Source: [Lactobacillus] timonensis (GTDB lineage Bacteria; Bacillota; Bacilli; Lactobacillales; Lactobacillaceae). Taken from it: DNA of 41,897 nt. The stretch is from NCBI RefSeq assembly GCF_900240275.1, contig NZ_LT964761.1, positions 597,171-639,067 of the forward strand, written 5' to 3'. The notes under the pieces were generated by a model. It had not been told where the DNA came from, did not search any database, and saw nothing but the letters and a program-made list of their open reading frames with translations. Made by a program: the position numbers and the translations under genes. Shown one piece after another: positions 6,881-39,616 of the stretch. Numbering within the stretch: position 1 is the first letter of the stretch; each line of letters starts with the position of its first letter.

Positions 6881-7540
6881 CTAAATTTCTAAAGTCTTTT
6901 GATTATAGAAATCTACTTTAACTTGTTCAGGACTCAGTGACAATTTCATGATGGCACCATTGTCCGGTCCTTCGTAGTCGTCACGTTCGCCATAACGGCA
7001 AGCAATGTAGCGGATAATCGAGCCGTGTGCGGCAACGACAACGTTGCTGTTGTCCGCTAGTTGACGTAAAAACTCCATCGCTTGATCGCAGCGCTGGTTT
7101 AACTGCTGGCTGTCTTCAGCCAGGTGAGCCGGGTCCGCTTCGTGCAGCAAATCGTGCAGTTTCGGCATCCCGTACTTATCGATTACCTGGGACAGCCGAC
7201 GCATCCGATCACCTGCTAAGTGACTGGCCCAAATCGCCCCTTCTTCGTTGCTGTGCCCTTCAAAGGATCCATAGAAAACTTCCCGGAAAAGCTTGCTTTG
7301 GGTTGGTTCCGTTATCGTTGATTTTGGGTGGTTCTTGATCAAAATCCGCGCAGTATCTACTGCCCGTTTGAGATCACTTGAAAATAAGTAGTCAATCTGA
7401 AGCGGTGCCAGCTCGCGGCCAACCTTGGCAGCGTCTTCCTCACCTTTCTCCGTTAGTGGCGTATCTGACCACCCCTGAAGCCGGGCAAACATATTAAAGT
7501 AAGTCTCGCCGTGCCGTACCATGTAAACATTAATTGCCAT
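6881..7540 (-). CDS. Histidine phosphatase family protein (phosphoglycerate-mutase-like)
   Basis: A 219-residue cytoplasmic enzyme of the histidine phosphatase superfamily. The catalytic motif VRHGET places the phospho-histidine at His10; the second catalytic His172 is in VVAAHGSIIRY. An arginine in SSDLKRAVDTA (about 59) completes the phosphate pocket. The loop length and the SFEGHSNEEG stretch point to a broad-specificity sugar phosphatase rather than glycolytic mutase. It has its own extended -10 promoter and a terminator. The start ATG has AAGGAGG upstream. The substrate is unknown. Confidence 0.85.
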   Translation of the reverse strand: MAINVYMVRHGETYFNMFARLQGWSDTPLTEKGEEDAAKVGRELAPLQIDYLFSSDLKRAVDTARILIKNHPKSTITEPTQSKLFREVFYGSFEGHSNEEGAIWASHLAGDRMRRLSQVIDKYGMPKLHDLLHEADPAHLAEDSQQLNQRCDQAMEFLRQLADNSNVVVAAHGSIIRYIACRYGERDDYEGPDNGAIMKLSLSPEQVKVDFYNQKTLEI

Positions 7541-7565
7541 GATGTCCCTCCTTAGTCATAAGAAC

Positions 7566-7588
7566 ATCATACCATGCAAGCGGTTACG
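7566..7588 (-). promoter_or_regulatory. Extended -10 promoter with cre-like box for the histidine phosphatase
   Basis: On the minus strand TGGTATGAT (7566-7574) is an extended -10 element, 25 bp before the start codon. A cre-like box TGCAAGCGGTTACG (7575-7588, 12 of 14) abuts it on the upstream side. Confidence 0.5.
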
Positions 7589-7609
7589 CCGACGACCTTT
7601 TTAAAGAGC

Positions 7610-8584
7610 TTAATATTTACCCAGGTTTGGCCAGGAAGTAATCAACGTCATGTCGCCTAACCATTGCCACTTATTAATCGTGACCGGCAAAATAAAGTGG
7701 TCCCCTTTAATTACATTATAGCTATAATCGCCAATTACTAGAGATCCAGAACCCGTCACAACTGAAACAAGTAAAAATGGCCGTGCTCTCATCTTCTCGG
7801 TAAGCGGCGTTTTAATACTTAATTTTTGCACTGTAAAGTAAGGTGAATCCTCACTTCCTACCAAAATAGTCACAGTTGATTCTTTATCACGCACCACTTG
7901 AGGTTTAATATGGGGAGCAACGAACGGCACAGTAATGACATCCTCCGATTTAGCAATATCCAATCGCCGTTTCTTCCCGTTTTGTCCAATTCGGTCATAA
8001 TCATAAAGCCGGTAAGTAATATCAGAACTCTGTTGTGTTTCTAATACTTCGATTCCTTCCGTTAATGCATGAATAGTACCACTGGGAGTAAAAATAAAGT
8101 CACCCTGTTTGACCGGTAATCTTTTTAGCAATTTATCCCATTTGCCATCTTCAATCATTTCGTCTAATTCATCATGGCTTTTAGCTGTATGCCCATAAAT
8201 AAGATATGCATCTGGCTTAGCCTTAAGAACATACCAGCATTCTGTTTTACCCAACGAATTTTCATTCTTTTTGGCGTACTCATCGTCTGGGTGTACTTGA
8301 ATTGAGAGCTTATCATTAGCATCCAGAATCTTTGTTAGAATAGGGAATTTGGTTTCTTGGGGATGATCAAACAATTCCGGATGTTGTCGGTAAAGGACGT
8401 CCAACGTTTCACCAGCATAGGTGCCATTTTTTATGGTGCTTACCCCATGGGGGTGACCGGAGATAGCCCAGCATTCGCCAATTTTTCCATCAGGTATCTG
8501 ATATCCAAAATCTCTTTCTAAATTACGACCACCCCAAATTTTTCGGTGAAAAACTGGTTTTAAAAATAACGGTGTTGAATCCAT
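7610..8584 (-). CDS. manA: Mannose-6-phosphate isomerase, class I
   Basis: A 324-residue zinc enzyme that interconverts mannose-6-P and fructose-6-P. It has the cupin fold and the type-I zinc ligands: Gln96 and His98 in SIQVHPDD, Glu115 in GKTECW, and His172 in SGTIHAL. The N-terminal WGGRNL stretch is characteristic. The short Firmicute length of about 320 residues is as expected. An AAGGAGA site lies 7 nt before the ATG. A strong terminator ends only about 20 bp upstream of the start, so expression depends on read-through from the transketolase operon or an unseen promoter. With the mannose-class PTS nearby it would complete mannose use. Confidence 0.93.
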   Translation of the reverse strand: MDSTPLFLKPVFHRKIWGGRNLERDFGYQIPDGKIGECWAISGHPHGVSTIKNGTYAGETLDVLYRQHPELFDHPQETKFPILTKILDANDKLSIQVHPDDEYAKKNENSLGKTECWYVLKAKPDAYLIYGHTAKSHDELDEMIEDGKWDKLLKRLPVKQGDFIFTPSGTIHALTEGIEVLETQQSSDITYRLYDYDRIGQNGKKRRLDIAKSEDVITVPFVAPHIKPQVVRDKESTVTILVGSEDSPYFTVQKLSIKTPLTEKMRARPFLLVSVVTGSGSLVIGDYSYNVIKGDHFILPVTINKWQWLGDMTLITSWPNLGKY

Positions 8585-8604
8585 TTTTTATCTCCTTTTT
8601 GGCT

Positions 8605-8647
8605 TAAAAAAACAGCATTAGGGAATGCAACAATCCCTAATGCTGTT
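8605..8647 (-). terminator. Strong terminator between transketolase and manA
   Basis: A perfect 14-bp stem (AACAGCATTAGGGA, 8611-8624, with TCCCTAATGCTGTT, 8634-8647) is followed on the minus strand by TTTTTTT. It ends the regulator-IIB-IIC-tkt operon and lies immediately upstream of the manA ribosome binding site. Confidence 0.85.
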
Positions 8648-8657
8648 CAACACATTA

Positions 8658-10649
8658 CTACTTAGCAAAACGGTCAATGTATTGTTTGACAATGTTGTCA
8701 ACAGTAAATCCTGACTTGGCAATAAGGTCATCCCCATTACCGCTTTCGCCGAAGTGGTTGATACCTAAAATAGTGCCATCTAACCCAGTAAATTGTGCCC
8801 AATCATAAGTTGTTGCCATTTCAACGGCCATTCGGTTTCGTAGTTCTGATGGCAATACATTTTCACGATAACTGTCTGATTGTTTAAGGAACAGTTCAAA
8901 ACTTGGCATCGAAATTACACGAACGTTAATTCCTTTTTCAGCGAGTCTCTTTTGTGCATCTAGCAGAAGGCTAACTTCCGAACCACTGCCCATTAAAATC
9001 CCTGATGGTTTGCCATTTGCCGCTTCAGATAGGATATATCCACCATTGGCAACAGAATCTTTAATAACAGTTTGATACTTCTTTAGCGTTGGTAACTTCT
9101 GCCTACCAAGAACCAGCATTACTGGGGCATGATGCTCGTTTAGCGTGTATTCCCAAGCATAGAGCGTTTCTAATGCATCGGCTGGCCGAAATACAATCAA
9201 ATTTGGCATTGCTCGGTAACCTTCCAGTTGTTCAATTGGCTGGTGGGTTGGACCATCAGGGCCAAGTGAAATTGAGTCGTGTCCAAATAAGTAAACCGTT
9301 GGAATCTGCATTAGCGACGCTTGCCTAATTGCACTCCGCATATATTCTGAGAAAATCAGGAACGTATTTCCAAAGACACGTGAGCCACCATAGAGAGTAA
9401 TTCCGTTTAGTTCTGCACCTTCAGCAAATTCTCGAATTCCAAATGCAATATTATGTTTGCCATATTGACCAGGTTGAAATCCTTCATCACTATCAAAGTA
9501 AGTCTTATCAGAACTGCCGAGGTCTGCTGAACCACCCCACAAATTGATGTCAGTCTTTTGAATGGTAGTTTGCAAAATTTGGTGAATCGCATCCCGAGTT
9601 GCTTCCTGGTCGGAAAATTCTTCCTGGAAGTCATCGATATTGATTTTTTCCTTATTAGTGAGGTTATTTACCAAACTAGTGTAGAGGTTAGGATACTTTT
9701 CACGATATTCTTGCAATAAATCATTCCATACAGCATGGGCTGTTTGACCATCATCTTTGATTTGCTTAAAGGTCGAATATACTTCGTCTGGAACATCAAA
9801 TGGTCCATATTCGTAGCCCAGCTGCTGTTTAGTTTCTTGAACTTGTTCCTCAGTCAAGACTACTCCGTGCGCTTTGTGACTGTCAGCAAATGGCGAAGCA
9901 TATCCTAAGACTGTCTTAACTTCAATGATTGTTGGTCGGCTATGTTCATCCTTAGCAACTTGAATGGCACTATCCATAGCGTTTAGATCATTACCATCTT
10001 CAACGCTTAGGTAGTTCCAACCATATGCCTTAAAGCGCTCGGCCGCATTGTCATTGCATTCTGCACTTAATGCAGAATCCATCGTGTTACGGTTTGAGTC
10101 ATACAAGACGATTAAATTATTCAAGTGAAGGTGTCCAGCTAGACTAGCAGTTTCGTGGCTAATCCCTTCCATCAAGTCACCATCACCAACCTCAACAAAG
10201 ATGTGGTTATGGACGATATCAAAGCCTGGACGGTTGTAAATTGACGCAAGGTGTTTTGCGGCCATTGCCATCCCTACCGCCATACCAAAGCCTTGACCTA
10301 ACGGACCGGTTGCTGCGTCTACACCAGGAGTAGTAATTTCTGGATGCCCTGGTGTTTTGCTTCCCAACGTCCGGAATTGTTTGAGATCGTCAATCGAAAT
10401 ATCATAGCCAATCAAGTGAAGAAGGGCATACATCATTGCCGATCCATGTCCACCTGATAATACAAAGCGGTCACGGTTAAACCACTGCGGGTCATCAACA
10501 TCAACATTCATATTCCTGTAAATAGTGTAGAGCAGTGGCGCAGCACTTAGTGTGACCCCAGTGTGTCCTGAATTAGCATTGGTAATTTCATCCATACTTA
10601 AAGCCCGAATTGCATTTACCGCTTGCTGATCCTTACTTGTATACTTCAT
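8658..10649 (-). CDS. tkt: Transketolase (copy 1)
   Basis: A 663-residue thiamine-diphosphate enzyme that moves two-carbon units between ketose and aldose phosphates. The cofactor motif begins at GDGDLMEGISHE. The GPLGQGFGMAVGMA stretch and the pyrimidine-domain motif HDSISLGPDGPTHQPIEQL are clear. I start at the ATG at 10649 because AGAGAGGAG precedes it by 6 nt; a 7-codon upstream extension is just the translated ribosome binding site. It is 34 bp after an ascorbate-class IIC in the operon regulator-IIB-IIC-tkt. The gene looks more AT-rich than the second transketolase at 33036-34997. It probably processes the phosphorylated product of this PTS rather than serving housekeeping. Confidence 0.94.
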   Translation of the reverse strand: MKYTSKDQQAVNAIRALSMDEITNANSGHTGVTLSAAPLLYTIYRNMNVDVDDPQWFNRDRFVLSGGHGSAMMYALLHLIGYDISIDDLKQFRTLGSKTPGHPEITTPGVDAATGPLGQGFGMAVGMAMAAKHLASIYNRPGFDIVHNHIFVEVGDGDLMEGISHETASLAGHLHLNNLIVLYDSNRNTMDSALSAECNDNAAERFKAYGWNYLSVEDGNDLNAMDSAIQVAKDEHSRPTIIEVKTVLGYASPFADSHKAHGVVLTEEQVQETKQQLGYEYGPFDVPDEVYSTFKQIKDDGQTAHAVWNDLLQEYREKYPNLYTSLVNNLTNKEKINIDDFQEEFSDQEATRDAIHQILQTTIQKTDINLWGGSADLGSSDKTYFDSDEGFQPGQYGKHNIAFGIREFAEGAELNGITLYGGSRVFGNTFLIFSEYMRSAIRQASLMQIPTVYLFGHDSISLGPDGPTHQPIEQLEGYRAMPNLIVFRPADALETLYAWEYTLNEHHAPVMLVLGRQKLPTLKKYQTVIKDSVANGGYILSEAANGKPSGILMGSGSEVSLLLDAQKRLAEKGINVRVISMPSFELFLKQSDSYRENVLPSELRNRMAVEMATTYDWAQFTGLDGTILGINHFGESGNGDDLIAKSGFTVDNIVKQYIDRFAK

Positions 10650-10683
10650 ATTGAACTCCTCTCTGCTCAATAATTAGATATCA

Positions 10684-12051
10684 TTACTTGTTATTGTTGG
10701 CATTAACCTTGTCACGGTGATCAAGGATGATGGAGATAATGAAGAAGATAACCAAGCAAGCAACCAAGGCACCAATAATTCCCATGCGACCTGCATACAT
10801 ACCACTGTAACCAACAACTGAACCAACAACACCGAAGTCGGAGTCGGCAAAGCTAGCAGTCCCCAGTCCGAGGTGACCCAGAACTGGAATCAGCATGATT
10901 GGAACCCACGAAATCATAAAGCCGTGAACAAACGCACCAATAACGGCACCTCGACGACCACCAACAGCGTTACCAATAACCCCAGCAGTCGCACCACACA
11001 TGAAGTGAGCAACGACCCCTGGAATAACAATGGTAGTGTGGAAGACAACCATCAAAGCAGTAGCAACTAAACCACCAATAAAGCTGCAGAAGAACCCAAC
11101 AATTACGGCATTTGGTGCAAATGGGAACAGGATTGGAATATCCAGCCCGGCCTTAGCACCAGGTACCAACTTGGCAGAAATGCCCTTGAAGGCAGGAATC
11201 AATTCATTAAGAATCATCCGTACACCAGCCAGCATGATGTAAACACCAGCAGCAAAGGAACCAGATTCAATAAACGCATAAATGAGGTAGTTGATCCCAC
11301 CGCTAAATTTATCAACGTAGGTTGGACCAGCAGCAATGGCAACAATGATGTAAGCAACAGCCATTGTCAGCGTAACCGCAATGGTGTTGTCACGAAGGAA
11401 TGAAACCTTCTTTGGTACGTGAAGATCTTCAGTGGTCTTAGAAGGATCACCGACAACCTTAGCAACTAATCCTGAAATCAAGTAACCAAAGTCACCCGTG
11501 TGGGCAATCGCAATTTCGTCTGTCTTCGTAACTTTCCGAACAAACGGTTGAATTAACGCAGGCATAATCGTATCAAACAGTCCTAGGAAGACCCCACCAA
11601 TAACGATTGATGGAACTTCAGTAAAGCCAGCCACTGCAAGCAGAACGGCCAACATACAAGACATGTTAATCATAACGTGCCCGGACAGGTAGATGTACTT
11701 AAAGTGCGACATCCGCGCCAAAATAACGTTAACAATTAGTGCGACTAAGAGAATTAGCGCTGTGGCACTACCATACTTGCCCAGTGCCGTTGCGGTAAAA
11801 GCTTCATTATTCGGAACGACCCCTTGTACATGAAAGGCATGCATGAACATCTTTCCGAAAGGATCAAGGGCATTGGTGATAACCCCTGCACCACCAGTTA
11901 GAACAAGGAACCCAACGAAGGTCTTAATACCACCCTCGGCAATATCAGTACCTTCCTTTTTCTGAAGTGCTAGACCAAGTACCGCTACCAGGCCCACTAA
12001 AATTGACGGTGTCCGTGCGATGCTAACAAGAAAGTTTAAAAAACCGTTCAT
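10684..12051 (-). CDS. PTS ascorbate-class (UlaA/SgaT) EIIC permease
   Basis: A 455-residue polytopic membrane protein of the UlaA family. Family hallmarks are GGIKTFVGFLVLTGGAGV near residue 40, the GLDIPILFPFAPNAVIVGF stretch near 300 and GGRRGAVIGAFVHGF near 370. It forms the transport channel; IIB is the gene just upstream (18 bp). No separate IIA gene exists in this operon. The family was defined on L-ascorbate uptake, but the coupling to transketolase suggests another sugar; the substrate is not determinable here. Confidence 0.92.
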   Translation of the reverse strand: MNGFLNFLVSIARTPSILVGLVAVLGLALQKKEGTDIAEGGIKTFVGFLVLTGGAGVITNALDPFGKMFMHAFHVQGVVPNNEAFTATALGKYGSATALILLVALIVNVILARMSHFKYIYLSGHVMINMSCMLAVLLAVAGFTEVPSIVIGGVFLGLFDTIMPALIQPFVRKVTKTDEIAIAHTGDFGYLISGLVAKVVGDPSKTTEDLHVPKKVSFLRDNTIAVTLTMAVAYIIVAIAAGPTYVDKFSGGINYLIYAFIESGSFAAGVYIMLAGVRMILNELIPAFKGISAKLVPGAKAGLDIPILFPFAPNAVIVGFFCSFIGGLVATALMVVFHTTIVIPGVVAHFMCGATAGVIGNAVGGRRGAVIGAFVHGFMISWVPIMLIPVLGHLGLGTASFADSDFGVVGSVVGYSGMYAGRMGIIGALVACLVIFFIISIILDHRDKVNANNNK

Positions 12052-12068: not shown

Positions 12069-12359
12069 TTAATCTTCAACGCTATCCAAATAAGCCTTGA
12101 TCTTATCCTTCAACTCTTTTTTATCAATAATTGAATTCAAAACGGTGACATTCTCTTCGCCAACCACGTGGGCAACAGCATCGTACATATCCCGTCCCAC
12201 AAAGAAATGATCGGCAGTATCACGGTTAACACCAGACAAGTCAATGTGAAGTGTTTTAACATCAGAACGGCCTAATTGTTGTAAAACTTCCTGCATATTC
12301 ATATCAACCATGAACGAAGAACCAACACCTGTACTGCAACATGCTCCAATAGTAATCAT
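12069..12359 (-). CDS. PTS ascorbate-class (UlaB-type) EIIB
   Basis: A 96-residue IIB phosphocarrier. The active cysteine is Cys8 in ACCSTGVGSSFM, which aligns with LCQSGLGSSFM of the paralogue at 36670-36966. I choose the ATG at 12359, one base after the regulator stop codon, because the in-frame ATG at 12371 leaves only one base to the nearest Shine-Dalgarno-like AGGG. Translation is likely coupled to the regulator. The phosphate donor in this operon is probably the C-terminal IIA domain of that regulator, as no other IIA is encoded. Confidence 0.9.
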   Translation of the reverse strand: MITIGACCSTGVGSSFMVDMNMQEVLQQLGRSDVKTLHIDLSGVNRDTADHFFVGRDMYDAVAHVVGEENVTVLNSIIDKKELKDKIKAYLDSVED

Positions 12360-12360
12360 G

Positions 12361-14427
12361 TTATTCACCATCCCTAATTAATTGAGTAATTGTATCTACT
12401 GACTTTGCATTAAGAACTTGCTTAACTTTCTCTTCATCCCCAAGTATTTGTGTTAATTCCGCTAACGCTCTCAGATGAGAACTAGAATCCTTAGCTGCCA
12501 GAACAACAATCAGCTGAATCTTATGCTTGTCATCAACTAGATCAACCGTATTGTCGAGAAGCAACAATGACATTCCTACTTCAAGTACATCTGAACTTGG
12601 CTGAGCATGTGCTAACGCAATCTTGTCAGCAATGTTGATGTAAGGACCGTTCTTATGAACGTTAGCAATAATGTCATCAACGTAACTGCTCTTAATTTTT
12701 CCTAAATCAATCAACGGTTGGGCGGCTCGCTGGATAGCTTGTTGCCAAGTCATTCCCGAGCTTGGAACCCCGATTTGAATCGTCTTATCTGTAAGTAATT
12801 CACTTAACAATGGTCCATATTCTCCTTTATGCCTGTAGTTAACACTAGGTGTCAAAACGTCTTGAATTCCCATCACCAGGTCACGGTAGTTAGTAATCTT
12901 TGTATTGGCTTGTACCACTTCTAGTATTGCCGACAAGTTTTGGCTAATGCCTGTAGGAATAATATGATTGCGGATCAATTTTTTCTTAAGTATTAATAAA
13001 TCATTGTCAGACAATATAGAATCGACCTTAATGACAGGTTTATTGAGCGTTGAAACTGGAACGGTTGAGATAACAATATCTTGTTCTACCTCTGTCAGTC
13101 CTTCATAATCGCTCTTGGTTATCGGCCCAACTTGGAGTAATTCTGGTATCATCGTTTCCAGCTGCGATTTCAATAGGTATGACGTGCCTAGCCCCGCAGA
13201 GCATACTAATAAGGCCGATTGCTTTTGGACATGCTGATGATAAAGTTCTGCGCCAAAATACATACTAATTAGGCCAACCTCGTCATCATTAAGCGGTTCA
13301 GCAAGCAGATCTTCAAAAGGTTTCAGCGAAAGCTGAGTATATAAGTAAATCTGTCGGTACTGCTTTTTTAGCTTCCCTGCGATTTTATCTTTGTACTGGC
13401 GGTGATAAGCCACCCGATAAAATGTCGCAATAAGGTGTTGAAACAGCTTTGATTGAAGCTTCTTTTCGTCTTGGAATTTGACTTGGTCAAGATTTTTGAA
13501 TGTATTAATAACTTCGACGGTCGCCTGCGTAATTTTCCTCTCGATATCATTTTCGCCTAGCTGCTTGCGAGTTGATACAGTTGGACTTTCCAGTAACAAT
13601 CCTTCAAGATAGTATGTTTCCTCTGGCAAACTTCCCGGAACTATCTTCTGAATAAGATCCCGTGCGAACTCAAACTCTGGTTGGTCATGCATTTGGTTTT
13701 TAATAAACTCGTTACTTGGAAAACTATTGACGCTCAAGCTTAATCCTTGTCGTAATCTACTTATCACCCCGCTATAAAAGAAGCTGATATTGCGAAAACT
13801 TTCGTAGGAAAAATAATGATGTAGAAACTTCTGAACTAGCGTCAACCACTCAGTAGTTTTATCGTATTGTTGCCAAGTTGGTGATTTATAATTTGTTTTA
13901 CGAAAAACTGCAATTAGTCTTTGGAAATTTACGTTTTTAAAAACATAATTCCGAATTTGCAATTCATCACCAACTAGGCTGTACCCATTACGATTACCGA
14001 TTAGTTCAATTCCCGTGCTCTTTAGTAGCGTCCGAACATGGTTAATGTCTTTTAGAATTGTGCTACGTGAATGAGCTGTCTTTTGTTCTAAATAACTGAT
14101 TGTGATAGACTGCTCTCGTAAAAATAGTTCCCAAATCATTAACTGTTCACGATCAACTGACTTAAGTCGCGGCCGGTAATTGTCCTGAAGTTTCAACTTT
14201 CCCAGTTGGGAACGACTATCATCTATTAGGTGATACCCAACTCCTCTCACGTTTTGTAAAGGGGTAATACCATCATCTAGTAGCTTTTTGTTGAGTTTCG
14301 CAATCACCGAATAAACTGATCTTTTCGAAATAGCTAATTTCTCGGTCAATTCATCAACCGATAGCGGCTCTTCAGCATCTAGCAATAATATAAGGATAGT
14401 TTTCTCTTTCTCTGATAGATCTATCAT
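12361..14427 (-). CDS. PRD-domain PTS regulator with EIIB and UlaC-like EIIA domains
   Basis: A 688-residue transcriptional activator of the LicR/MtlR type. Order of domains: winged HTH (about 1-60), second HTH (90-150), two PRDs (about 180-395), a galactitol-type EIIB with Cys409 in VCSAGLGTS, and EIIA with His607 in IALAHAQPS. The EIIA tail closely resembles the stand-alone IIA at 36979-37419; both have GPYINI, IALAH and a TWQ(Q/D)AI stretch. I start at the ATG at 14427, 7 nt after AAGGAGG. It heads its own operon (IIB, IIC, transketolase), which has no other IIA. I infer that the tail also serves transport. The upstream region has a cre-like box and a TATGAT -10. Confidence 0.9.
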   Translation of the reverse strand: MIDLSEKEKTILILLLDAEEPLSVDELTEKLAISKRSVYSVIAKLNKKLLDDGITPLQNVRGVGYHLIDDSRSQLGKLKLQDNYRPRLKSVDREQLMIWELFLREQSITISYLEQKTAHSRSTILKDINHVRTLLKSTGIELIGNRNGYSLVGDELQIRNYVFKNVNFQRLIAVFRKTNYKSPTWQQYDKTTEWLTLVQKFLHHYFSYESFRNISFFYSGVISRLRQGLSLSVNSFPSNEFIKNQMHDQPEFEFARDLIQKIVPGSLPEETYYLEGLLLESPTVSTRKQLGENDIERKITQATVEVINTFKNLDQVKFQDEKKLQSKLFQHLIATFYRVAYHRQYKDKIAGKLKKQYRQIYLYTQLSLKPFEDLLAEPLNDDEVGLISMYFGAELYHQHVQKQSALLVCSAGLGTSYLLKSQLETMIPELLQVGPITKSDYEGLTEVEQDIVISTVPVSTLNKPVIKVDSILSDNDLLILKKKLIRNHIIPTGISQNLSAILEVVQANTKITNYRDLVMGIQDVLTPSVNYRHKGEYGPLLSELLTDKTIQIGVPSSGMTWQQAIQRAAQPLIDLGKIKSSYVDDIIANVHKNGPYINIADKIALAHAQPSSDVLEVGMSLLLLDNTVDLVDDKHKIQLIVVLAAKDSSSHLRALAELTQILGDEEKVKQVLNAKSVDTITQLIRDGE

Positions 14428-14594: not shown

Positions 14595-14622
14595 AAAAAA
14601 ACGCCGACAATTAAGTCGACGC
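14595..14622 (-). terminator. Hairpin plus T-run upstream of the regulator gene (possible leader attenuator)
   Basis: On the minus strand GCGTCGAC pairs with GTCGGCGT (two wobble pairs) around TTAATT and is followed by TTTTTTT. No minus-strand gene ends nearby, so it would stop antisense transcripts from the deoC side or act as a leader attenuator of the regulator operon. Confidence 0.5.
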
Positions 14623-17751: not shown

Positions 17752-17790
17752 TAATAATCACGCCAAAGGCGTGTGGTTATTGGCTTTTTT
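17752..17790 (+). terminator. Protective terminator inside the left end of the IS4-type element
   Basis: AATAATCACGCC pairs with GGCGTGTGGTTATT (one bulge) and is followed by GGCTTTTTT. It lies upstream of the transposase on the same strand, so it blocks impinging transcription. Confidence 0.65.
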
Positions 17791-17868
17791 GGCAAAAAAA
17801 TAAACGCAAGCTCTCCTGCGTTGTATACTTTAGTCGACCAAAACCAAGATACAAAGGAGACTTACGTC

Positions 17869-19227
17869 ATGAATATTATAAGACAAAAAAATACAGAAAA
17901 CGAGCTTCACAATATTGTTCATCAATTTACTTCCCTCATTGGTCTATCTAAACTCACCAAGTTGGTGAATTATCGCCGGAATTCAGAAATCAGCTTGATG
18001 AAGGTCATTGAATGGCTGCTCACGACAAAGTTCCTGGGACGCTCGCTTTATCGAGCCCATGAAACACCTAACTTTACCAGTCGCACCGTCAGAAATAATT
18101 TGAACGATGGCCGGATCAATTGGCAACGCTTGATTTGTCAAGTTGGGAGTCATTTAATCAAGCATTTACGACCGTTTATTGACCGCCGGCGGCGGTTAGC
18201 ATTGATCATTGACGATACACTCTTTTCCCGTGAGTACGCCACCCAAACCGAATTACTAGCGCGAGTCTTTGACCATGACAAACAGTTATATATTAAGGGA
18301 TACCGGGCTTTAACTTTGGGTTGGAGTGACGCCAATACATTCTTACCGATCAACTTTGCATTAATGTCTTCCAAGAAGCCACAAAACGTCCTTGGAAAAT
18401 CAGCTAAAACAACCGATCAACGAACAATTGCTGGCCGGAGACGTCGCCAAGCACAGCAAAAAATGAACCTCGTTTCATTGCAACTTGTCAAGCAAGCCCT
18501 CGCAAATGGCGTTCTGGCTGACTATGTGTTATTTGATAGCTGGTATAGCTCACCAAAAATGTTCTATGAATTAACCAAGTTGGGATTAAACGGCGTGGGC
18601 ATGCTTAAACGGTCCAGCAAAATTTACTATCAATATCGCGGACGGCAATATTCAGTTAAAGCATTATACAAGCGACTGCAGGCCTCAAAATATCAACCCA
18701 AGCAAGCTTATCAATACAGCTGCTTTGTCGAAGCGCACGTCGGGAACCAAAAATTCAAGCTTCGCTTGGTATTTGTGGCTAATCGGGCCCGTCAAGATGA
18801 CTACCTAGTACTGGCAACGACTCAGTTAGGCCTTCAGCCACAAGCGATCATTCAACTATACGCCCGAAGATGGCAAATTGAGAATTACTTTAAAGTTGCC
18901 AAGCAATACTTGCGGCTCGACAAATCACAAGTTCAAAATTATGACGGGCTTTGTGGCCATTTAGCAATTGTCATGATGACTTATGACCTATTAGCTTGGC
19001 AGGAACGGCAAAATCAGGATGATCGCACCATTGGGGATTTATTCTTTATAATGAACGAAGCCATGCCAGATATTGAGTTGTCTCAAGCACTGGTATGGCT
19101 TCTAAATTCGTTAAAAACGATTATTAATCATGAAGTTTATGCAAGAAGAGCCCAAATTATTCAGATGATGAATCAGTTCTTCACATTTTTGCCGAAACGG
19201 TTAGTTTCGCTGTTAACAGCAAGCTAA
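17869..19227 (+). CDS. IS4-family transposase
   Basis: A 452-residue DDE transposase. Catalytic aspartates are at about 115/116 (LIIDDTLFS) and 223 (LFDSWYSS). The glutamate is Glu338 in the IS4 signature Y-x2-R-x3-E-x6-K (Tyr331, Arg334, Glu338, Lys345). The start ATG at 17869 has AAAGGAGA 6-7 nt upstream; the in-frame extension to 17773 runs through the protective hairpin and is not a real start. The length is usual for the family and the frame is intact, so the element is probably active. It is antisense to the host PTS operon. Confidence 0.95.
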   Translation: MNIIRQKNTENELHNIVHQFTSLIGLSKLTKLVNYRRNSEISLMKVIEWLLTTKFLGRSLYRAHETPNFTSRTVRNNLNDGRINWQRLICQVGSHLIKHLRPFIDRRRRLALIIDDTLFSREYATQTELLARVFDHDKQLYIKGYRALTLGWSDANTFLPINFALMSSKKPQNVLGKSAKTTDQRTIAGRRRRQAQQKMNLVSLQLVKQALANGVLADYVLFDSWYSSPKMFYELTKLGLNGVGMLKRSSKIYYQYRGRQYSVKALYKRLQASKYQPKQAYQYSCFVEAHVGNQKFKLRLVFVANRARQDDYLVLATTQLGLQPQAIIQLYARRWQIENYFKVAKQYLRLDKSQVQNYDGLCGHLAIVMMTYDLLAWQERQNQDDRTIGDLFFIMNEAMPDIELSQALVWLLNSLKTIINHEVYARRAQIIQMMNQFFTFLPKRLVSLLTAS

Positions 19228-19287: not shown

Positions 19288-19719
19288 TCAAGTTTCAGTT
19301 TCATCTACTTGCTGTGGGCTATTAGCCTGATCTAACTGCTGGTAAAGGTCTTTCTTTTGCAAGACTTTCACAAGTTCCGCCATCTGTCCCAGATGGCCCT
19401 CAGGTTTAACGGAACTAAGCGTAAAGAGATACTTTACTGGATCGTTCGCCTTGTTGCCAAACTTAACTGGTTCCTTAAGAACCGTTAATCCAATAGCGTC
19501 ATCCAACACACCGTCCTTAGAGCTAGCGTGTGGTAGTGCAACATGGGGGGCAATCACAATATATGGTCCCGTTTCCTTTGCAATTTCGATGATCCGCTTT
19601 GGATATTGATCCGTTACCTTGTTATGTTCTACAAGTGGTTGGACAGCCTTATTAACGGCTTCTTCCCAGCTATTTGCTTCAACATTGACTTGGATCAGCT
19701 CCGGATCGATTAAAGACAT
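19288..19719 (-). CDS. PTS EIIA (UlaC/mannitol-fructose type), C-terminus altered by IS insertion
   Basis: A 143-residue IIA phosphocarrier with His64 in VALPHASSKDG. It is the first gene of the IIA-IIB-IIC-aldolase operon and lies divergent to the regulator at 19845-21911, with an ATG start and GAGGTGAT upstream. The IS4-type element entered its last codons. Joining the two flanks through one copy of the 9-bp duplication restores an ending QQVDEIVND. The present gene ends QQVDETET, with the final three residues and the stop encoded by the IS inverted repeat. The active site is far from this end, so the protein probably works, but the downstream genes are cut off. Confidence 0.9.
   Translation of the reverse strand: MSLIDPELIQVNVEANSWEEAVNKAVQPLVEHNKVTDQYPKRIIEIAKETGPYIVIAPHVALPHASSKDGVLDDAIGLTVLKEPVKFGNKANDPVKYLFTLSSVKPEGHLGQMAELVKVLQKKDLYQQLDQANSPQQVDETET
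19299..19307. repeat. Target-site duplication, right copy (TTTCATCTA)
   Basis: This copy is identical to 17728-17736 and flanks the right inverted repeat of the IS4-type element. Confidence 0.9.
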
Positions 19720-19756: not shown

Positions 19757-19814
19757 AGTATAGGTATTTACAAAAAAGTACACAAGCGCAATAATATCTT
19801 GTGGATGAGTGCAA
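19757..19814 (-). promoter_or_regulatory. Promoter of the interrupted PTS operon with paired TTGCRC boxes
   Basis: On the minus strand TTGCAC (19809-19814) and TTGCGC (19786-19791) are exactly 23 bp apart start to start. The latter lies exactly 23 bp upstream of a TATACT -10 (19757-19762). A TTGTGT -35 with a 17-bp spacer overlaps the second box. The same geometry is present at 37458-37515. Confidence 0.6.
19767..19795 (+). promoter_or_regulatory. Divergent promoter of the PRD regulator gene
   Basis: TTTACA (19767-19772) and AATAAT (19790-19795) are separated by 17 bp, about 50 bp before the regulator start. It overlaps the operator boxes of the opposite promoter, which would allow autoregulation. 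Confidence 0.45.
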
Positions 19815-19844
19815 AAATTGTGCACGATTGGAGAGGATAATAAA

Positions 19845-21911
19845 ATGATTAACTTTAGCAAAAGTCGCCATGGCAATGACTTGCTGACAAACCTTTGCGA
19901 ATCAACAGCCAAGTTTACTGATTCACAATCTTTAGCTGATAAACTGGAAATTTCTCGACGATCTCTTTTTTACACAATTAAAAAGGTCAACAGCGAATTA
20001 TCCGCTGCTGACCTTGATCCAATTTCCTATATCCGTCCAACTGGTTATTTTCTGTCCGATAAAACTCGTCAAGCTTTACAAAATAGTCATCCTACAAATG
20101 AACTTTTGCCAAAAATAAGTATCCAGCTTAAAAAAACACCGCGAAATAACGAACGGCAAATTATAGATACCTTCCTAATGATTAGTGATTATTTTCCCGT
20201 CATTTCTTCACTGCAACAACTGTATAGTGTTAGCAAAAATACGATTCTTAGTGACATTCGTTATGTTAAAGCCAACCTGCCCGAGGGACTTACCATGGTC
20301 AATACTCCTCGTGGCAAAGCAATTGCTGGCCCCGAAATGATTAAGCGCAGCTGGGTCTTATCACACTTATCCACAGTCCTCCACTTCATCTGTGTTCCCA
20401 ACTTCGACCAACATCATTCTTATATCGAAAAGCAACTCAAACAATTCGAAAAGATTACCGGGAGTGCACTGACTGGTAATGCTTTTCACTCGCTGCTCCA
20501 TTATCTGGACTGGTATACGTTCAGAATAACCGTTAAACACTATCACCTTCCTGTTTCTGATAATGATTCAGCCCTTCCTTACTCGCTCTCTAATATGTGG
20601 GCCACTAGATTTTTAAAAGGCATTAAGATTAACAATCCTGCTGAAGTCAACTATCTGAGCGAGATTGTCAATGCAAACCAATTTTCCTATATTGACCGGG
20701 ATAACCCGATGATGAATAAATTACGCCCCATTGCAAAACAAATAGTTCACCTTTGGGTTCTCTCAGCCAATGCATCATTATCAATTAACATTAACAAACT
20801 CATTGAGAATTTAACTGTTCACCTAGTTCCGACTTATTACCGGTGCAAATATCATATCCAATACCATAATCCTTTGCTTAATGAAATAACTACCAATTAT
20901 CAAGAAACATTTCAACTGACCAGACTATCTGTCTCACCGCTTGAAAAGTATCTCAATACTAAGCTTTCGGACGATGAAATTTCTCTGATCTCTATCTATT
21001 TTGGCAGTGCTCTTCGCAACCAGCACCGTAAGAAGCTCAAGAATGAAATTCTTGTTGTTTGTTCTAGTGGTATTGGCACCTCACACCTTTTGTTTAGTCA
21101 ACTCCAGAATGTTTACCCCTCTGTCAACTTTCGGCGCCCATTCAACACCTTGGAACTTGAAAATGTCAACTGGAGCAATGTTGCTGGTGTCATCAGTACT
21201 CTTCCCGTCAATTACGATCGACAAGTTCCCCACATTCAAATTCAAGCAATGCCCTCAAAAGCTGATTGGCAAACTATTCAGCGTTTTCTGATTGAGACTA
21301 ACGTTTTATCAAAGGAAACTGCGTCACGAATTAACATTGAATCACTAATCGACGTCATTGCAGAATACGCGCGAATTGAGCATCCCCAGCAGCTGAAACA
21401 AGCTCTGTTGGACTTTCTCCTTTCTGCTAAAAGTGTCAATATGAATTATCCTAATAGGGAACGGTTCCTCGGAATTAATCAACAATACCTCCAACTGTTT
21501 AAGAGCCCAACTAACTGGCAAGCAGCAATTCAACAGTCGTTTCAACCATTGGAGGATGCTGGTACCATTGACCACTCTTACACCACTAAAATAATTCAAT
21601 CGACCATTGATCACGGCGATTACATGATTATCGGCAACGGTATTATGCTTGCTCATGGAGGGCCAGCAGACGGGGTTAACAAACTAGGGATTGGATTTAA
21701 TCTCTTCAAGCAGCCATTTACTAGCATTGGCGGTCAAACCATTCACATTGTTATTACCCTGGCCCCAGTCGATGCCAAGCTGCAAGTTCCATTTCTCGAA
21801 GTTATGTTAAAATTTGCTTCTGATAAAAAATGGCTTAAAAAGGTGATTGCTTCACCAACAAAGGACGATTTAAAAGTCATTTTGCACCAGAGTCATTTAC
21901 TAGCTAATTAA
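19845..21911 (+). CDS. PRD-domain PTS regulator (HTH-PRD-PRD-EIIB-EIIA)
   Basis: A 688-residue LicR/MtlR-type activator. Two N-terminal HTH regions are followed by two PRDs. The galactitol-type EIIB has Cys406 in VCSSGIGTS and the EIIA has His604 in MLAHGGPAD. I start at ATG 19845 because GGAGAGG stands 8 nt upstream; a GTG at 19809 is not supported. It is divergent from the PTS-aldolase operon and is the likely regulator of it. It is a close paralogue of 37565-39616 (similar N-terminus with RHG, same EIIB motif). Its EIIA tail is more diverged from transport IIAs than that of the 12361-14427 regulator. Expression ends at the bidirectional hairpin near 21927. Confidence 0.9.
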   Translation: MINFSKSRHGNDLLTNLCESTAKFTDSQSLADKLEISRRSLFYTIKKVNSELSAADLDPISYIRPTGYFLSDKTRQALQNSHPTNELLPKISIQLKKTPRNNERQIIDTFLMISDYFPVISSLQQLYSVSKNTILSDIRYVKANLPEGLTMVNTPRGKAIAGPEMIKRSWVLSHLSTVLHFICVPNFDQHHSYIEKQLKQFEKITGSALTGNAFHSLLHYLDWYTFRITVKHYHLPVSDNDSALPYSLSNMWATRFLKGIKINNPAEVNYLSEIVNANQFSYIDRDNPMMNKLRPIAKQIVHLWVLSANASLSININKLIENLTVHLVPTYYRCKYHIQYHNPLLNEITTNYQETFQLTRLSVSPLEKYLNTKLSDDEISLISIYFGSALRNQHRKKLKNEILVVCSSGIGTSHLLFSQLQNVYPSVNFRRPFNTLELENVNWSNVAGVISTLPVNYDRQVPHIQIQAMPSKADWQTIQRFLIETNVLSKETASRINIESLIDVIAEYARIEHPQQLKQALLDFLLSAKSVNMNYPNRERFLGINQQYLQLFKSPTNWQAAIQQSFQPLEDAGTIDHSYTTKIIQSTIDHGDYMIIGNGIMLAHGGPADGVNKLGIGFNLFKQPFTSIGGQTIHIVITLAPVDAKLQVPFLEVMLKFASDKKWLKKVIASPTKDDLKVILHQSHLLAN

Positions 21912-25158: not shown

Positions 25159-25587
25159 TCACCTCTTCTCTCTCAAATAATCTTTTAGATCTTTCTGACT
25201 GCCATGACTGAACAAATTGAGTACTTCTTGTCTGCCTAGATTTAAAAAGAATTGCTTACATTCTTGTTGATCACAAATTGACATTTTTAGCGGTACAAGT
25301 GTAAAAATGAGGCGGTCGATTCCCTGATACCCTTCCCAGTCTTTCAGCGGTGTCGTTAACTTCACTACTTCAATTCTGAAATGAAGAACATTAGAAGAAC
25401 GAACGTGTGGGATTGCTAAGTTGCTGGCAACAATTGTGGAAGCCAATTGTTCGCGCTGAACAATCTCATGGATGAAGCGTCCTGTATCAGTAATGATTCC
25501 TGACAATTGCTGGCTTTTACCAAACTGGTAGAGCAACTCTTGCTGCTCATTAGTTTTATATCGTTCCCAATCAACTTGGATTTTCAC
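25159..25587 (-). CDS. Stand-alone EIIA-type protein, likely the detached regulatory IIA of the PRD regulator
   Basis: A 142-residue EIIA type-2 domain with His61 in ASNLAIPHVRSS. The start is GTG with AAGAGG upstream. The regulator just upstream (25751-27238) ends right after its EIIB domain and lacks the EIIA tail found in full-length relatives. The paralogous gene at 30140-30571 overlaps its regulator's stop codon. I infer that this protein is the missing regulatory domain made separately; it could instead be a second transport IIA. It follows a 163-bp gap that contains a perfect cre site and a long leader hairpin. Confidence 0.8.
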   Translation of the reverse strand: MKIQVDWERYKTNEQQELLYQFGKSQQLSGIITDTGRFIHEIVQREQLASTIVASNLAIPHVRSSNVLHFRIEVVKLTTPLKDWEGYQGIDRLIFTLVPLKMSICDQQECKQFFLNLGRQEVLNLFSHGSQKDLKDYLREKR

Positions 25588-27238: not shown

Positions 27239-27278
27239 AGTAGCCAACCTCCCCTAATTTAATGTTAGGAAGTAATCT

Positions 27279-29678: not shown

Positions 29679-30140
29679 TTATTCTTCCATTGCAGCAACG
29701 ACGTCATCAGCGCTTTCCGCCTTCAACAGGCTTTCAATAACTGATTCTTTACCCAATTTCTTGGCAAACATCGCCAGCATCTTTAGGTGGGTTTTAGCGC
29801 CCTCGCTGTCATCGCCAACGTCAAACAGCACGACGACCTTGGCCCCGGTGTCATCCAGTGACTCCCACGCCACTTCATGATTTAAGATGGCAATTGCCAC
29901 CCCGTTCTTCTTTACCGTGGCGCTTTTTCCATGAGGAATAGCTACGTGGTTACCAATTCCCGTAGCTCCTTCTTTTTCCCGTTCATAAACGGACTGAACA
30001 TAGTCATCAACAGATGTAATGTAGCCAGCATCGTAAAAACGCTTCGCAAGCGCCCGAATAACCTGGTCCTTATTGTCTGCTCGAAGATCAGTAATAATTG
30101 TCCTTTTATCAATAACTTGGTCTAAAGATAAATTCTCCAT
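29679..30140 (-). CDS. PTS fructose-class EIIA (transport, allulose-type operon)
   Basis: A 153-residue IIA with His70 in HVAIPHGKSATV and the conserved REKEGATGIG lead-in. It follows the second IIA-type gene with a one-base overlap of stop and start, and precedes IIB. It is the likely phosphate donor to the IIB at 29350-29661. Confidence 0.9.
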   Translation of the reverse strand: MENLSLDQVIDKRTIITDLRADNKDQVIRALAKRFYDAGYITSVDDYVQSVYEREKEGATGIGNHVAIPHGKSATVKKNGVAIAILNHEVAWESLDDTGAKVVVLFDVGDDSEGAKTHLKMLAMFAKKLGKESVIESLLKAESADDVVAAMEE

Positions 30141-30571
30141 TAATCTAGCTCTCCATTTATAATTTTGCTTACCTCTTGGCGGGTCCCACTGGCTAAAAAT
30201 GTCATAACATGGTCATTAGCAAGTTGGATAAAGAAGTCCTTCATTGCCAGCAAGTCACTTTTGGCAGCTTTTTCTGGCAACAAGATGAAAACAAACCTGC
30301 TAACTTCCTGTGTAGCATCCCACACTACCGGCAACGGTAGGCGTAAGTACAGTAGTGCTGCTTCGTTAACTAGTGGACTTTGCGTATGCGGGATTGCAAG
30401 GTTATCAGATAAAATCGTGTTGCCCTTTTCTTCTCGTTGCAGAAATTCTTGTTGAATTTCTGCCGCATCCCCAATTAACCCACGCTGCTGTAACATATTG
30501 CCGACAAATTGCAGCACCGCCATCTGGTCATCACCCGTAAAAGAGGTCATCCATTTTACTAACCTTTTCAT
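30140..30571 (-). CDS. Stand-alone EIIA-type protein coupled to the PRD regulator
   Basis: A 143-residue EIIA type-2 domain with His62 in SDNLAIPHTQSP. Its ATG overlaps the regulator's TGA (ATGA), so it is translated in step with a regulator that lacks an EIIA domain. I infer a split regulator. Its closest relative in the window is 25159-25587 (shared SNLAIPH and FFxxL patterns) rather than the transport IIA beside it. A second transport IIA remains possible. Confidence 0.82.
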   Translation of the reverse strand: MKRLVKWMTSFTGDDQMAVLQFVGNMLQQRGLIGDAAEIQQEFLQREEKGNTILSDNLAIPHTQSPLVNEAALLYLRLPLPVVWDATQEVSRFVFILLPEKAAKSDLLAMKDFFIQLANDHVMTFLASGTRQEVSKIINGELD

Positions 30572-32064: not shown

Positions 32065-32108
32065 CACTGTCCCCCTTCCTCTACGCTTTTTATTCTATCG
32101 AAATGTCA

Positions 32109-36978: not shown

Positions 36979-37419
36979 CTAGTCCTTTAAAATGTCTAAC
37001 ACATCATCAACAGAAGTGGCGGCCAGCAATTGTTTTGTCCGGTCAGCATCCATCAAGACTGTTGAAAGCTCTTGAATCACTTTCAAGTGGCTGTTACTGT
37101 CCGTTGCGGCCAAAACAAACCACAACTTCACCGGGTGCTCATCACTCACTAAGTTCACCGGCTGGTTCGTCTTCATCAGTGCCAAACCAACCTTCTTAAC
37201 ACTCGGCCGCGGACGCGAATGGGCCAGGGCAATGTTAGGGCCAATGTTAATGTAGGGACCCTTGTCTTCAACCACGTCGATCATTGCGTCAACGTAGTCT
37301 TCACCGGCCGTGCCGTTATCGACTAACGGTTTGGCAGCCTGGCGAATCGCATCTTGCCATGTCAAATCACTACCGTCTACTACTTGAACTGTCTGTTGAT
37401 CAAGTAAATCCAATGCCAA
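36979..37419 (-). CDS. PTS ascorbate-class (UlaC-type) EIIA
   Basis: A 146-residue IIA with His67 in GPNIALAHSRPRPS. It starts at TTG, 7 nt after GAGG. It is very similar to the C-terminal domain of the regulator at 12361-14427, an important clue to the role of that domain. It is the first gene of IIA-IIB-IIC and is divergent from the regulator at 37565-39616, with the paired TTGCAC operator boxes between them. Confidence 0.92.
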   Translation of the reverse strand: MALDLLDQQTVQVVDGSDLTWQDAIRQAAKPLVDNGTAGEDYVDAMIDVVEDKGPYINIGPNIALAHSRPRPSVKKVGLALMKTNQPVNLVSDEHPVKLWFVLAATDSNSHLKVIQELSTVLMDADRTKQLLAATSVDDVLDILKD

Positions 37420-37515: not shown

Positions 37516-37564
37516 AAAATGAACTACTATGTGAGGAAGCAAAACGATATTGGCGGTGATACTG

Positions 37565-39616
37565 ATGAATTTAACTAACATTCGGCATGGTGAACAGCTG
37601 GTTAATGAACTAGTCAAAAGTGACGCAACGGTGCCGTTAACTACCCTGATTGAACACCTGGGGGTTTCGCGGCGGAGCGTTTTTTATACGATTAACCGGG
37701 TCAACGAGGAACTGACTGCCAGTAGTTTGGACGAGATCGAAAATATCCGCGGCATCGGCTACCGGTTGCCCGTTGCAACTAAAAAAGCCCTGCTGGTTGC
37801 GCAACCAGCAAGGAGGACGGCTACCACTTACCAGGAACTCTTTGCTGGCAACTTTCACTTTGCTTCCTTAGAGCCAGATGACCGGCGCCTGCTCGCCTTT
37901 TTCTGCCTGCTTTCGCGTCCGGCATCTTCCTTAACTGCACTAATGAAGCTTTTCGCCGTCAGCAAAAACACCATCATTAAGGACCTCGACTACTTAACCG
38001 GCCAGCTGCCTGCCGGGTTGGCCATCCACAACTCTAGCAAGGGTAAGCAAGTCAGTGGCGACGAAGCCATCAAACGTCGCTGGGTCTTTGAAAACTTCCG
38101 TCAATTAACCAAACTCATTGGTCAGCAATTAACCTTTACCGATTCAGCGCACTTTCGCGACCAGCTCAAATTGCTCGAGCGGATTACCGGCAATGCCTTT
38201 ACTGACGACTCACTGAACCTCCTCGCACGCTTTACCCGCTGGCTGATTGAGCGTCAACAGACTCACCAGTTGCCGCCGCGTAAGTTAGCGAGCGCCGATT
38301 ACTCTCTAACCTTTACCTGGGCCGCTAGTTTTCTCAACGACCTACACATTAGCTCGGCCGCTGAAGCCATGTTTCTAGCGGAAATCGTCAATACCCAGGC
38401 CTTCCAACACGTTGGCGCTGACAACCCGATGATCCCCCTCTTGCGGCCCATCGCCAGTCAGATGATCCGACGCTTCAACGAGGTGGCCGCCGTCGAATTG
38501 CCGACTTCCGACCACACCCTCAATAAAAAGCTGACTGTCCACCTCGTATCGACCTACTACCGGGTCAAGTACCACATCAACTACCGCAACCCGCTGGTCA
38601 ACCAAATTAAGCACTCCTACCGGGAAACATTTGAGCTGGTTAAGCAGGCCGTCCAACCTTTCAACCAGTTCACCGGCGAGGCCCTGTCTGATGACGAAAT
38701 TGCGCTGATTACGGTCTACTTTAGTGGAGCCCTCCGCAATACCGACCTGCCTGAAAAGGAAAAGCAAAGTGTCATGGTAATCTGCTCCAGCGGTATTGGA
38801 ACTTCAGAACTGCTCATCTCACAGCTACGCAGCCGTTACCCGGGAGTAAGCTTTGTTGGTCCCTACAACACCTTCCAGTTTGAAAACCTCCGCTACCAGT
38901 CGATCAAGCTGGTTCTCAGTACCATTAGCCTGCCACAAATGCCGGAAAGGGTCCCGGTCATGACGGTTCCGGTCATCCCCGGCGAGGCCGATTGGCAACA
39001 AATCGGTGCCCGCCTCCAGGACGCCCACTTGATTGAAAGCCAGCACCAGGCAATCCAACTACCAACACTGATGGACATCATCGCCACCCACACCCGGATT
39101 GTTGACCCGCAGGGACTGGAAAACGACCTGAAGGCCTACCTCAATAACCAAACTCAGCGCCAACCCCACCTGACAACTAATGGTCAAACTACCGTCTCAT
39201 TGGTCAATCAGCCGGTTACCTGGCAAGAAGCACTCCGTTTCAGCATGAACAAGCTGGTGGCAACTAACGCCATCACCGGCCAGTACGTCAGCAAGATCAT
39301 CGAACTAACCAAAACCCACGGCGACTACATGGCCATCGGCAAGGGCGTCTTCCTTGCCCACGCGACACCGGAAGCCGGGGTCAATGAGCTTGGCTTTAGC
39401 TATACCTTCTTCCGCCACCCCTTCTGTGTCGACCACTCAGACAAGGAGATCAGCTTTGTTGTCGGCCTGGCCCCGGTTGACCAACGTCAACACCTGACGA
39501 CCCTCAGCCGCCTGTTACAATGCATTCAAAATGAACAGTGGATGGGCAAGTTAAAGAAGGTCGAGCAGGTTGGTGAACTGACCGCGTTGTTAAGGGAGGG
39601 AAAGTTGTTGGAATAG
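37565..39616 (+). CDS. PRD-domain PTS regulator (HTH-PRD-PRD-EIIB-EIIA)
   Basis: A 683-residue LicR/MtlR-type activator, paralogous to 19845-21911. Order: two HTH regions, two PRDs, EIIB with Cys407 in ICSSGIGTSELL, EIIA with His599 in FLAHATPEAG. I start at ATG 37565, after GGCGGTGAT (37552-37560), which matches the extended anti-Shine-Dalgarno pairing. A TTG at 37550 would make it five residues longer. It is divergent from the IIA-IIB-IIC operon and so is probably its activator. It is visibly more GC-rich than the other regulators in the window. No obvious terminator follows. Confidence 0.9.
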   Translation: MNLTNIRHGEQLVNELVKSDATVPLTTLIEHLGVSRRSVFYTINRVNEELTASSLDEIENIRGIGYRLPVATKKALLVAQPARRTATTYQELFAGNFHFASLEPDDRRLLAFFCLLSRPASSLTALMKLFAVSKNTIIKDLDYLTGQLPAGLAIHNSSKGKQVSGDEAIKRRWVFENFRQLTKLIGQQLTFTDSAHFRDQLKLLERITGNAFTDDSLNLLARFTRWLIERQQTHQLPPRKLASADYSLTFTWAASFLNDLHISSAAEAMFLAEIVNTQAFQHVGADNPMIPLLRPIASQMIRRFNEVAAVELPTSDHTLNKKLTVHLVSTYYRVKYHINYRNPLVNQIKHSYRETFELVKQAVQPFNQFTGEALSDDEIALITVYFSGALRNTDLPEKEKQSVMVICSSGIGTSELLISQLRSRYPGVSFVGPYNTFQFENLRYQSIKLVLSTISLPQMPERVPVMTVPVIPGEADWQQIGARLQDAHLIESQHQAIQLPTLMDIIATHTRIVDPQGLENDLKAYLNNQTQRQPHLTTNGQTTVSLVNQPVTWQEALRFSMNKLVATNAITGQYVSKIIELTKTHGDYMAIGKGVFLAHATPEAGVNELGFSYTFFRHPFCVDHSDKEISFVVGLAPVDQRQHLTTLSRLLQCIQNEQWMGKLKKVEQVGELTALLREGKLLE

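Follow-up and report, generated by a model that had tools for sequence, protein, structure and literature searches.

Genes and features of the locus

The window analysed here is a stretch of 41,897 nucleotides from [Lactobacillus] timonensis, and among its genes is a minus-strand operon (14427-8658) that runs in the order regulator, IIB, IIC and transketolase. No IIA gene lies between the members of this operon, in agreement with the original prediction, which was made from the sequence of the window and held that the EIIA tail of the regulator takes the place of the absent IIA. The regulator reading frame has its likely start at an ATG at 14427 behind AAGGAGG, and its stop ends at 12361. Pfam recognises HTH_11, an Mga HTH and PRD (one PRD stretch scoring), the match to IIB falls below its cut-off (20.9 vs 23.6), and PTS_EIIA_2 (PF00359) is present as a full domain at residues 549-687 (E 6.6e-29, 101 bits against a cut-off of 27). 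The domain order HTH, PRD, EIIB-like, EIIA is thus found in this protein, for which DNA binding and control by the PTS are predicted functions. The active-site His of the EIIA domain is residue 607, as had been proposed, with its codon at 12607-12609. The IIC exceeds the cut-offs of both PF03611 (445 bits; cut-off 24) and NF006919 (512 bits; cut-off 380), and the transketolase suggests a pentulose phosphate as the product of the IIB/IIC transporter. On the 5' side of the regulator start, at 14601-14622 on the minus strand, there is a terminator-like stem-loop with a U tract, of a kind expected at a similar level by chance, which is possibly a leader attenuator or a terminator of upstream transcripts.

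Table 1. Positions of the operon, of the predicted nested IIA and of related PTS genes within the window
Feature	Position	Strand	Remarks
Transcription regulator, PRD-type	12361..14427	-	688 aa; HTH_11, Mga-like HTH, PRD, EIIB-like domain, EIIA tail (His607)
Internal Shine-Dalgarno-like AAAGGAG	12822..12828	-	11 nt before the internal start; anti-SD duplex energy -8.8
Predicted internal start, in-frame TTG (codon 540)	12808..12810	-	column where stand-alone IIAs begin
Nested ORF, putative free IIA, 149 aa	12361..12810	-	carries the EIIA active-site His
IIB	12069..12359	-	ATG 1 nt past the regulator stop
IIC, EIIC-GAT / ascorbate-type family	10684..12051	-	PF03611, NF006919
Transketolase	8658..10670	-	present in the parallel operon too
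Stand-alone IIA of the parallel operon	36979..37419	-	likely start also TTG, behind GAGGTGAT
Divergent regulator of the parallel operon	37550..39616	+	EIIA tail; border without start codon or SD
Second divergent regulator	19809..21911	+	EIIA tail, border without start codon; separate IIA at 19288-19719

A parallel operon, with the order IIA, IIB, IIC and then transketolase that had been read for it and with a divergent regulator, occupies 37419-33036. The likeness claimed between its stand-alone IIA and the tail of the regulator at 12361-14427 amounts to 45% identity. The other EIIA-tailed regulators of the window had been described as having more diverged tails and separate IIA genes, which is what was found: their tails score 70 bits (37550-39616) and 49 bits (19809-21911) against 101 bits for the regulator at 12361-14427, and a separate IIA adjoins each of them.

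Other PTS genes of the window show signs of rearrangement. A 484-aa ORF at 17773-19227 on the plus strand, which from a reading of its sequence alone we take to be transposase-like, lies between the IIA at 19288-19719 and its IIB and IIC at 17697-16145; because the corresponding IIA-IIB-IIC-aldolase genes are contiguous in a relative (L066), an insertion seems to have split the window operon at this place. Two EIIA_2-like ORFs of 142-143 aa on the minus strand (25159-25587 and 30140-30571; 44 and 76 bits) come after PRD regulators that lack an EIIA tail and ahead of a further IIA, the regulator at 25751-27247 ending 163 nt before its ORF and that at 30568-32067 overlapping its own. In both places a regulatory EIIA domain seems to have been split off into a gene of its own.

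A putative start site within the regulator gene

The in-frame TTG at codon 540 sits at the border of the EIIA domain of the regulator, in a column that coincides with the N-terminus of stand-alone IIAs to within a few residues, and residue 1 of the nested ORF corresponds in an alignment to the Met at position 4 of the chain of 3oxp, a solved free IIA. The predicted product would start with Met followed by LSELLTDK and, at 110 Da per residue, would have a mass of about 16 kDa, compared with about 76 kDa for the regulator. Stand-alone IIAs of the EIIA_2 type (PF00359; PDB 3oxp, 2oq3) thus resemble the nested IIA in domain, N-terminal border and active-site His, and differ from it in that the frame in the window runs on upstream into the regulator. 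The site in the window is not the strongest of the set described below: it has a TTG and an 11-nt spacer, and synonymous recoding matches it in 7% of draws, so that the case for the window rests on the family.

An out-of-frame ATG at 12816-12818 on the minus strand, 3 nt past the internal SD, opens a 4-codon ORF and counts against the site. The stop codon of this short ORF falls on the opening codons of the nested IIA, and termination-reinitiation at the nested IIA is conceivable in the window genome. An internal promoter was considered as an alternative source of IIA mRNA, and no promoter-like match was found on the minus strand from 12245 to 13815.

Relatives of the regulator and their neighbourhoods

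At E <= 1e-60 the regulator was found in none of 49 other species of the window's genus, and its absence from them indicates that the gene was probably acquired. The family search recovered a homologue at the same threshold in 28 other genomes of 396, and further homologues came from searches of the order, of one further genus and of the class, and from a profile scan of contigs whose matches include Loigolactobacillus, Lactiplantibacillus, Lactobacillus, Tetragenococcus, Pediococcus and Bacillus. Scanning the genome contigs with the single regulator protein gave no match and scanning them with the profile gave 13 loci; a plasmid search found nothing by DNA and two records by protein, one of which, a Lactiplantibacillus plasmid typed as mobilizable, carries a homologous operon.

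The comparison comprises 111 PRD-type regulators. Left out of it were 10 of the 28 other family genomes (the weaker end, E 1e-61 to 1e-67), G583, G630, L080-L082 and L164, the phylum-search and one-genus matches lacking a locus, and 4 of the 20 loci considered for set 2, which had no usable EIIA-tail match (L122, L128, L129, L132). IIA genes were detected by blastp against the window proteins and by a home-made IIA profile, and 'no IIA' denotes the lack of an EIIA_2-like ORF within the regulator-IIB-IIC run, a definition that IIAs of other families would escape. Because profile A3 was made from positive rows, the regulators that it finds are a biased selection. The IIA of L118, which lies 5 bases outside the compared stretch, was taken from the genome listing of EIIA_2 matches. 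Near-copies, such as L048 and the plasmid, are counted in the raw figures; the tree contrast test allows for them.

The neighbourhoods are of two kinds, namely regulator-IIB-IIC runs with or without transketolase that contain no IIA, and separate-IIA operons from which the regulator is mostly divergent. Judged from gene order, the IIA-less arrangement is more than chance, as it recurs across many other genomes.

Predicted internal starts and the absence of a IIA gene

An internal start with an SD-like stretch is present in 68 of the 111 regulators, none of which has a IIA gene inside the operon, and a separate IIA accompanies 40 of the 43 regulators that lack such a start (Fisher P 5e-27 for start against IIA absence, with relatedness ignored). 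Each of the 68 is an in-frame ATG, GTG or TTG that falls at the IIA start column (62) or 1-2 codons later (6). The association holds in each of the four sets when the loci are grouped by their neighbours. Set 1, grouped by neighbours alone, has a start at the column in 21/21 IIA-less cases vs 0/16 with a separate IIA. The corresponding figures are 2/2 vs 0/12 in set 2, where the genome listing had shown some IIA places before starts were scored, 17/18 vs 0/10 in set 3, and 22/28 (the other 6 being shifted) vs 0/2 in set 4. Starts were scored first and neighbours read afterwards in sets 3 and 4, and for set 4 the lack of a IIA in such a pneumococcal operon was known beforehand from PMC4324149.

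Set 2 consists of 16 more regulators from the same genomes, two of which (L113 and L116) have the start. A IIA is absent from the gene run of both, and the operon next to that of L113 contains one. A separate EIIA_2-type IIA is present for 12 of the 14 regulators of this set without a start; for another of the 14, L124, none was found, and the short ORFs that adjoin it look, from their sizes, like lactose-type PTS genes. Both an internal start and a separate EIIA_2-type IIA were likewise sought without result in L125 and in L163. The phylum search contributed set 3, with 29 new loci of which 17 have a start, 11 do not and 1 has no EIIA match; SD energies run from -5.7 to -13.1 in 16 of the start-bearing loci and the SD is weak in L151 (-2.9). 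All 17 are followed by IIB and IIC with no IIA, and 10 of the 11 without a start have a separate IIA, the exception being L163/L192. Set 4 represents one genus of the order, with 30 loci; a start is present in 28, at the column in 22 and 1-2 codons later in 6, and all of these are regulator-IIB-IIC operons without a IIA, and the two loci without a start both have a separate IIA.

When the 68 start-bearing loci were re-checked, EIIA_2-like ORFs outside the operon in the same stretch were found only in the window, L049, L050, L051, L113 and L195, the nearest of them 4.0-6.9 kb from the 3' end of the regulator. In L053 and L054, where the operon has its own IIA, the start codon and the SD are both gone. 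L116 (1725-3878, in G591) has a clear internal start and SD, yet no adjoining IIB or IIC, and the transporter served by its nested IIA would have to be an unlinked one.

The association was also examined with relatedness allowed for. On the tree of the regulator bodies the internal start changes at least 10 times, and in 7 independent contrasts on starred branches the start and the absence of a IIA agree in 6-7 and are opposed in none (sign test P 0.016-0.031).

Nucleotide-level evidence at the internal site

The start codons at the 68 sites are ATG (27), TTG (26) and GTG (15), and the median SD energy at them is -8.6; the 2870 remaining in-frame start codons in these genes have a median of -1.7. 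Because start and SD both entered the scoring of sets 2-4, rank and wobble figures for all 68 are partly circular; those for set 1 are not. Of all in-frame start codons in its gene, the site carries the best SD in 14 of the 21 cases of set 1 (0.6 expected), and in that set the wobble positions -16 and -13 are purines in 21/21 vs 0.44 and 0.50 in the 16 with a separate IIA. Across all sets, with the circularity just given, the site ranks first in 34/68 (1.7 expected) and the same two positions are purines in 98.5% and 100%, against 52% gene-wide and 58% and 53% in the 43 without a start. The SD-like stretch is spelled by 27 different tripeptides among the 68, and selection at the internal site therefore appears to act on the nucleotides. 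Codon-matched recoding of each protein yields an equal site at frequencies from 0.0003 to 0.32 (0.07 for the window). Openness of the mRNA at the site (0.72 vs 0.62) is weak evidence, some reduced structure being seen in negatives too.

One might suppose that the SD-like stretch plays no part in initiation and serves instead to pause ribosomes for the folding of a domain, or that it is left over from an old fusion between a IIA gene and the regulator. The start-bearing tails do not form a single group in the EIIA tree described below, so that transport-type domains have maybe been fused or exchanged repeatedly, and recoding often produces an equal site in some genes, as the upper end of the range just given indicates. 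Pausing or a relic would leave unexplained the use of three start codons at one column and the loss of the site where a separate IIA exists, and the wobble purines are saturated in regulators whose bodies are in many cases only ~20% identical; this explanation is considered very improbable.

Kinship and rate of the EIIA domain

A phylogeny of EIIA domains, which had been proposed as a check on the original prediction, places the tail of the window regulator with stand-alone IIAs and so does not refute it. The tree holds 114 domains. Within it the window tail belongs to a starred set made up of 22 tails with an internal start, 18 stand-alone IIAs and a single further tail. Another set, with support 81 and no star, unites 26 of the 31 startless tails with 2 stand-alone IIAs. 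These placements come from a quick method applied to a short domain, and many forks of the tree are open. Startless tails amid the positives are L053, L078 and L112, L160 lies beside three positives, and L156 stands alone. From the 68 positive and 43 negative tails, 17 and 12 respectively were dropped as near-copies or fructose-like. Internal-start tails evolve slower than their own regulator bodies: at a body identity of 35-45%, tails are 60% identical where the start is present and 38% identical where it is not, in a test from which 17 of the 111 rows were left out. The EIIA active-site His is kept in 66/66 positives and 28/28 negatives and does not discriminate between them.

These data bear on whether an unlinked IIA might give the phosphate, with the regulator tail purely regulatory. 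Candidates are plentiful, as the window's genome has 13 other EIIA_2 matches and the number per genome in a set of 13 genomes runs from 8 to 29, and cross-talk of a glucose-family EIIA is known in B. subtilis (PMC6148471). The start-bearing tails, in contrast, fall among transport IIAs and show the conservation of enzymes, which the startless tails mostly do not, and it is hard to believe that an unlinked IIA is the source.

From the transport-type tail, its slow evolution and the missing IIA gene it follows that the regulator gene probably supplies the IIA of the operon, and this much of the original prediction stands. The part that is not supported in the form given is the choice of the regulator protein itself as the carrier, since the ribosome-binding site and start codon conserved where the EIIA domain begins suggest that the gene also yields a free IIA of 149 aa. 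Were the full-length regulator the only IIA, its EIIA tail would hand phosphate to IIB and no free IIA would be made, a scheme that has been suggested for the pneumococcal SP2129-30 system (PMC3302838) and that fits both an operon without a IIA gene and a tail that groups with transport IIAs. It offers no explanation of an SD and start at the border in 68 of 69 to 71 IIA-less cases vs 0/40 with a separate IIA, and a transcription factor would presumably need the abundance of a transport enzyme; this scheme is regarded as improbable, if less so than the two explanations above.

Several relatives depart from the common pattern. In L055, L075 and L102, of the Lactobacillus group, Ser replaces the Cys of the EIIB-like domain of the regulator while the tail is kept, and control via this Cys must therefore differ there. 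In the first half of the L104 regulator gene (7018-9149) the frame is broken, possibly through faulty assembly, and the nested IIA, IIB, IIC and transketolase are intact. L057 (2389-4275; matching Tetragenococcus solitarius, L076) lacks about 80 PRD residues in frame and keeps the EIIA tail and internal start. L049 (3118-5274) and L133 (9805-11858) encode PRD regulators of 541-569 aa with a stand-alone IIA gene directly after, an arrangement that could be read as a fission state, the counterpart of the nested form.

Comparison with known systems

The pneumococcal genes SP2131 and SP2127-30 are here presumed to be the same operon as ula2. That operon is described as UlaR2 (spd_1961) - UlaB2 - UlaA2 - TktN - TktC, with UlaR2 as its activator, and it resembles the operon of the window in having a regulator with HTH, PRD, EIIB and EIIA, followed by IIB, IIC and transketolase, and in having no dedicated EIIA (PMC4324149); it differs in that the transketolase is split in pneumococcus. 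The ula2 layout was tested in the genomes of set 4, one genus of the order, D39 itself being outside the set, and an additional IIA has been reported in the ula2 of strain G54. PTS operons that lack a IIA are known from earlier work, where they were ascribed to cross-talk or to the EIIA domain of the regulator, and for pneumococcus that domain has been suggested to energise the PTS, with ketopentoses proposed as substrate (PMC3302838).

PRD regulators of the MtlR/LicR/ManR type share with the window regulator the order HTH-PRD-EIIB-EIIA (for MtlR, PMC11537053). The transport EIIA phosphorylates the EIIB domain of MtlR, and the EIIA domain of MtlR itself, unlike what is proposed for the window, has no role in transport and is the sole domain named as not phosphorylated (PMC11537053). 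L114 and L115, in which a separate IIA adjoins the regulator and there is no internal start, look MtlR-like.

Nested genes made by internal initiation are already known. Cas11 is produced by internal in-frame initiation within cas8/cas10, and it is a functional protein from a start inside a larger gene, as the nested IIA would be (PMC11899642). It differs in being a CRISPR effector subunit and not a PTS enzyme within a regulator. For S. pneumoniae D39, internal start peaks in general are reported from Ribo-RET profiling (PMC9426450). Searches of open-access literature returned no report of an internal start in a PTS regulator among the titles listed. What appears new by these searches is a predicted internal start giving a free IIA; that an EIIA domain may serve a PTS without a IIA had already been suggested in print.

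A model for the regulator gene and its implications

The most plausible explanation, in which considerable confidence can be placed on the strength of the comparisons above, is that one gene would specify both the regulator and, through a second start within its reading frame, the transporter's IIA as a free protein. Internal initiation, phosphotransfer to the IIB at 12069-12359 and the control loop that would link them are inferred from sequence. Ribosomes starting at 14427 would make the full regulator, with its DNA-binding, PRD, EIIB-like and EIIA parts, and those starting at the TTG behind AAAGGAG would make the free IIA. HPr would then phosphorylate the free IIA on the His that corresponds to regulator residue 607, IIA~P would pass the phosphate to the IIB encoded next, and IIB would in turn phosphorylate the sugar imported by IIC. 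By analogy with MtlR, IIA~P could also phosphorylate the Cys of the EIIB-like domain of the regulator. Free IIA~P may in this way signal idle transport to that Cys, and flux through the transporter would drain IIA~P and so turn the regulator on. The full-length regulator may exchange phosphate with IIB as well.

It is likely, at somewhat lower confidence than for the two products of a single gene, that such genes form a widespread and unrecognised class in Bacillota, of regulator genes with dual products that yield both a regulator and the free IIA of the transporter under its control. A nested IIA would be expected to escape gene callers that allow each frame a single start, and the model predicts from DNA which regulators carry one. 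A nested IIA, if true, would be a simple source of the enzyme, would account for a whole set of 'IIA-less' PTS operons and would tie regulator and enzyme to one mRNA; knocking out the regulator would then also remove the IIA of the transporter, and deletions of such genes would have to be read differently.
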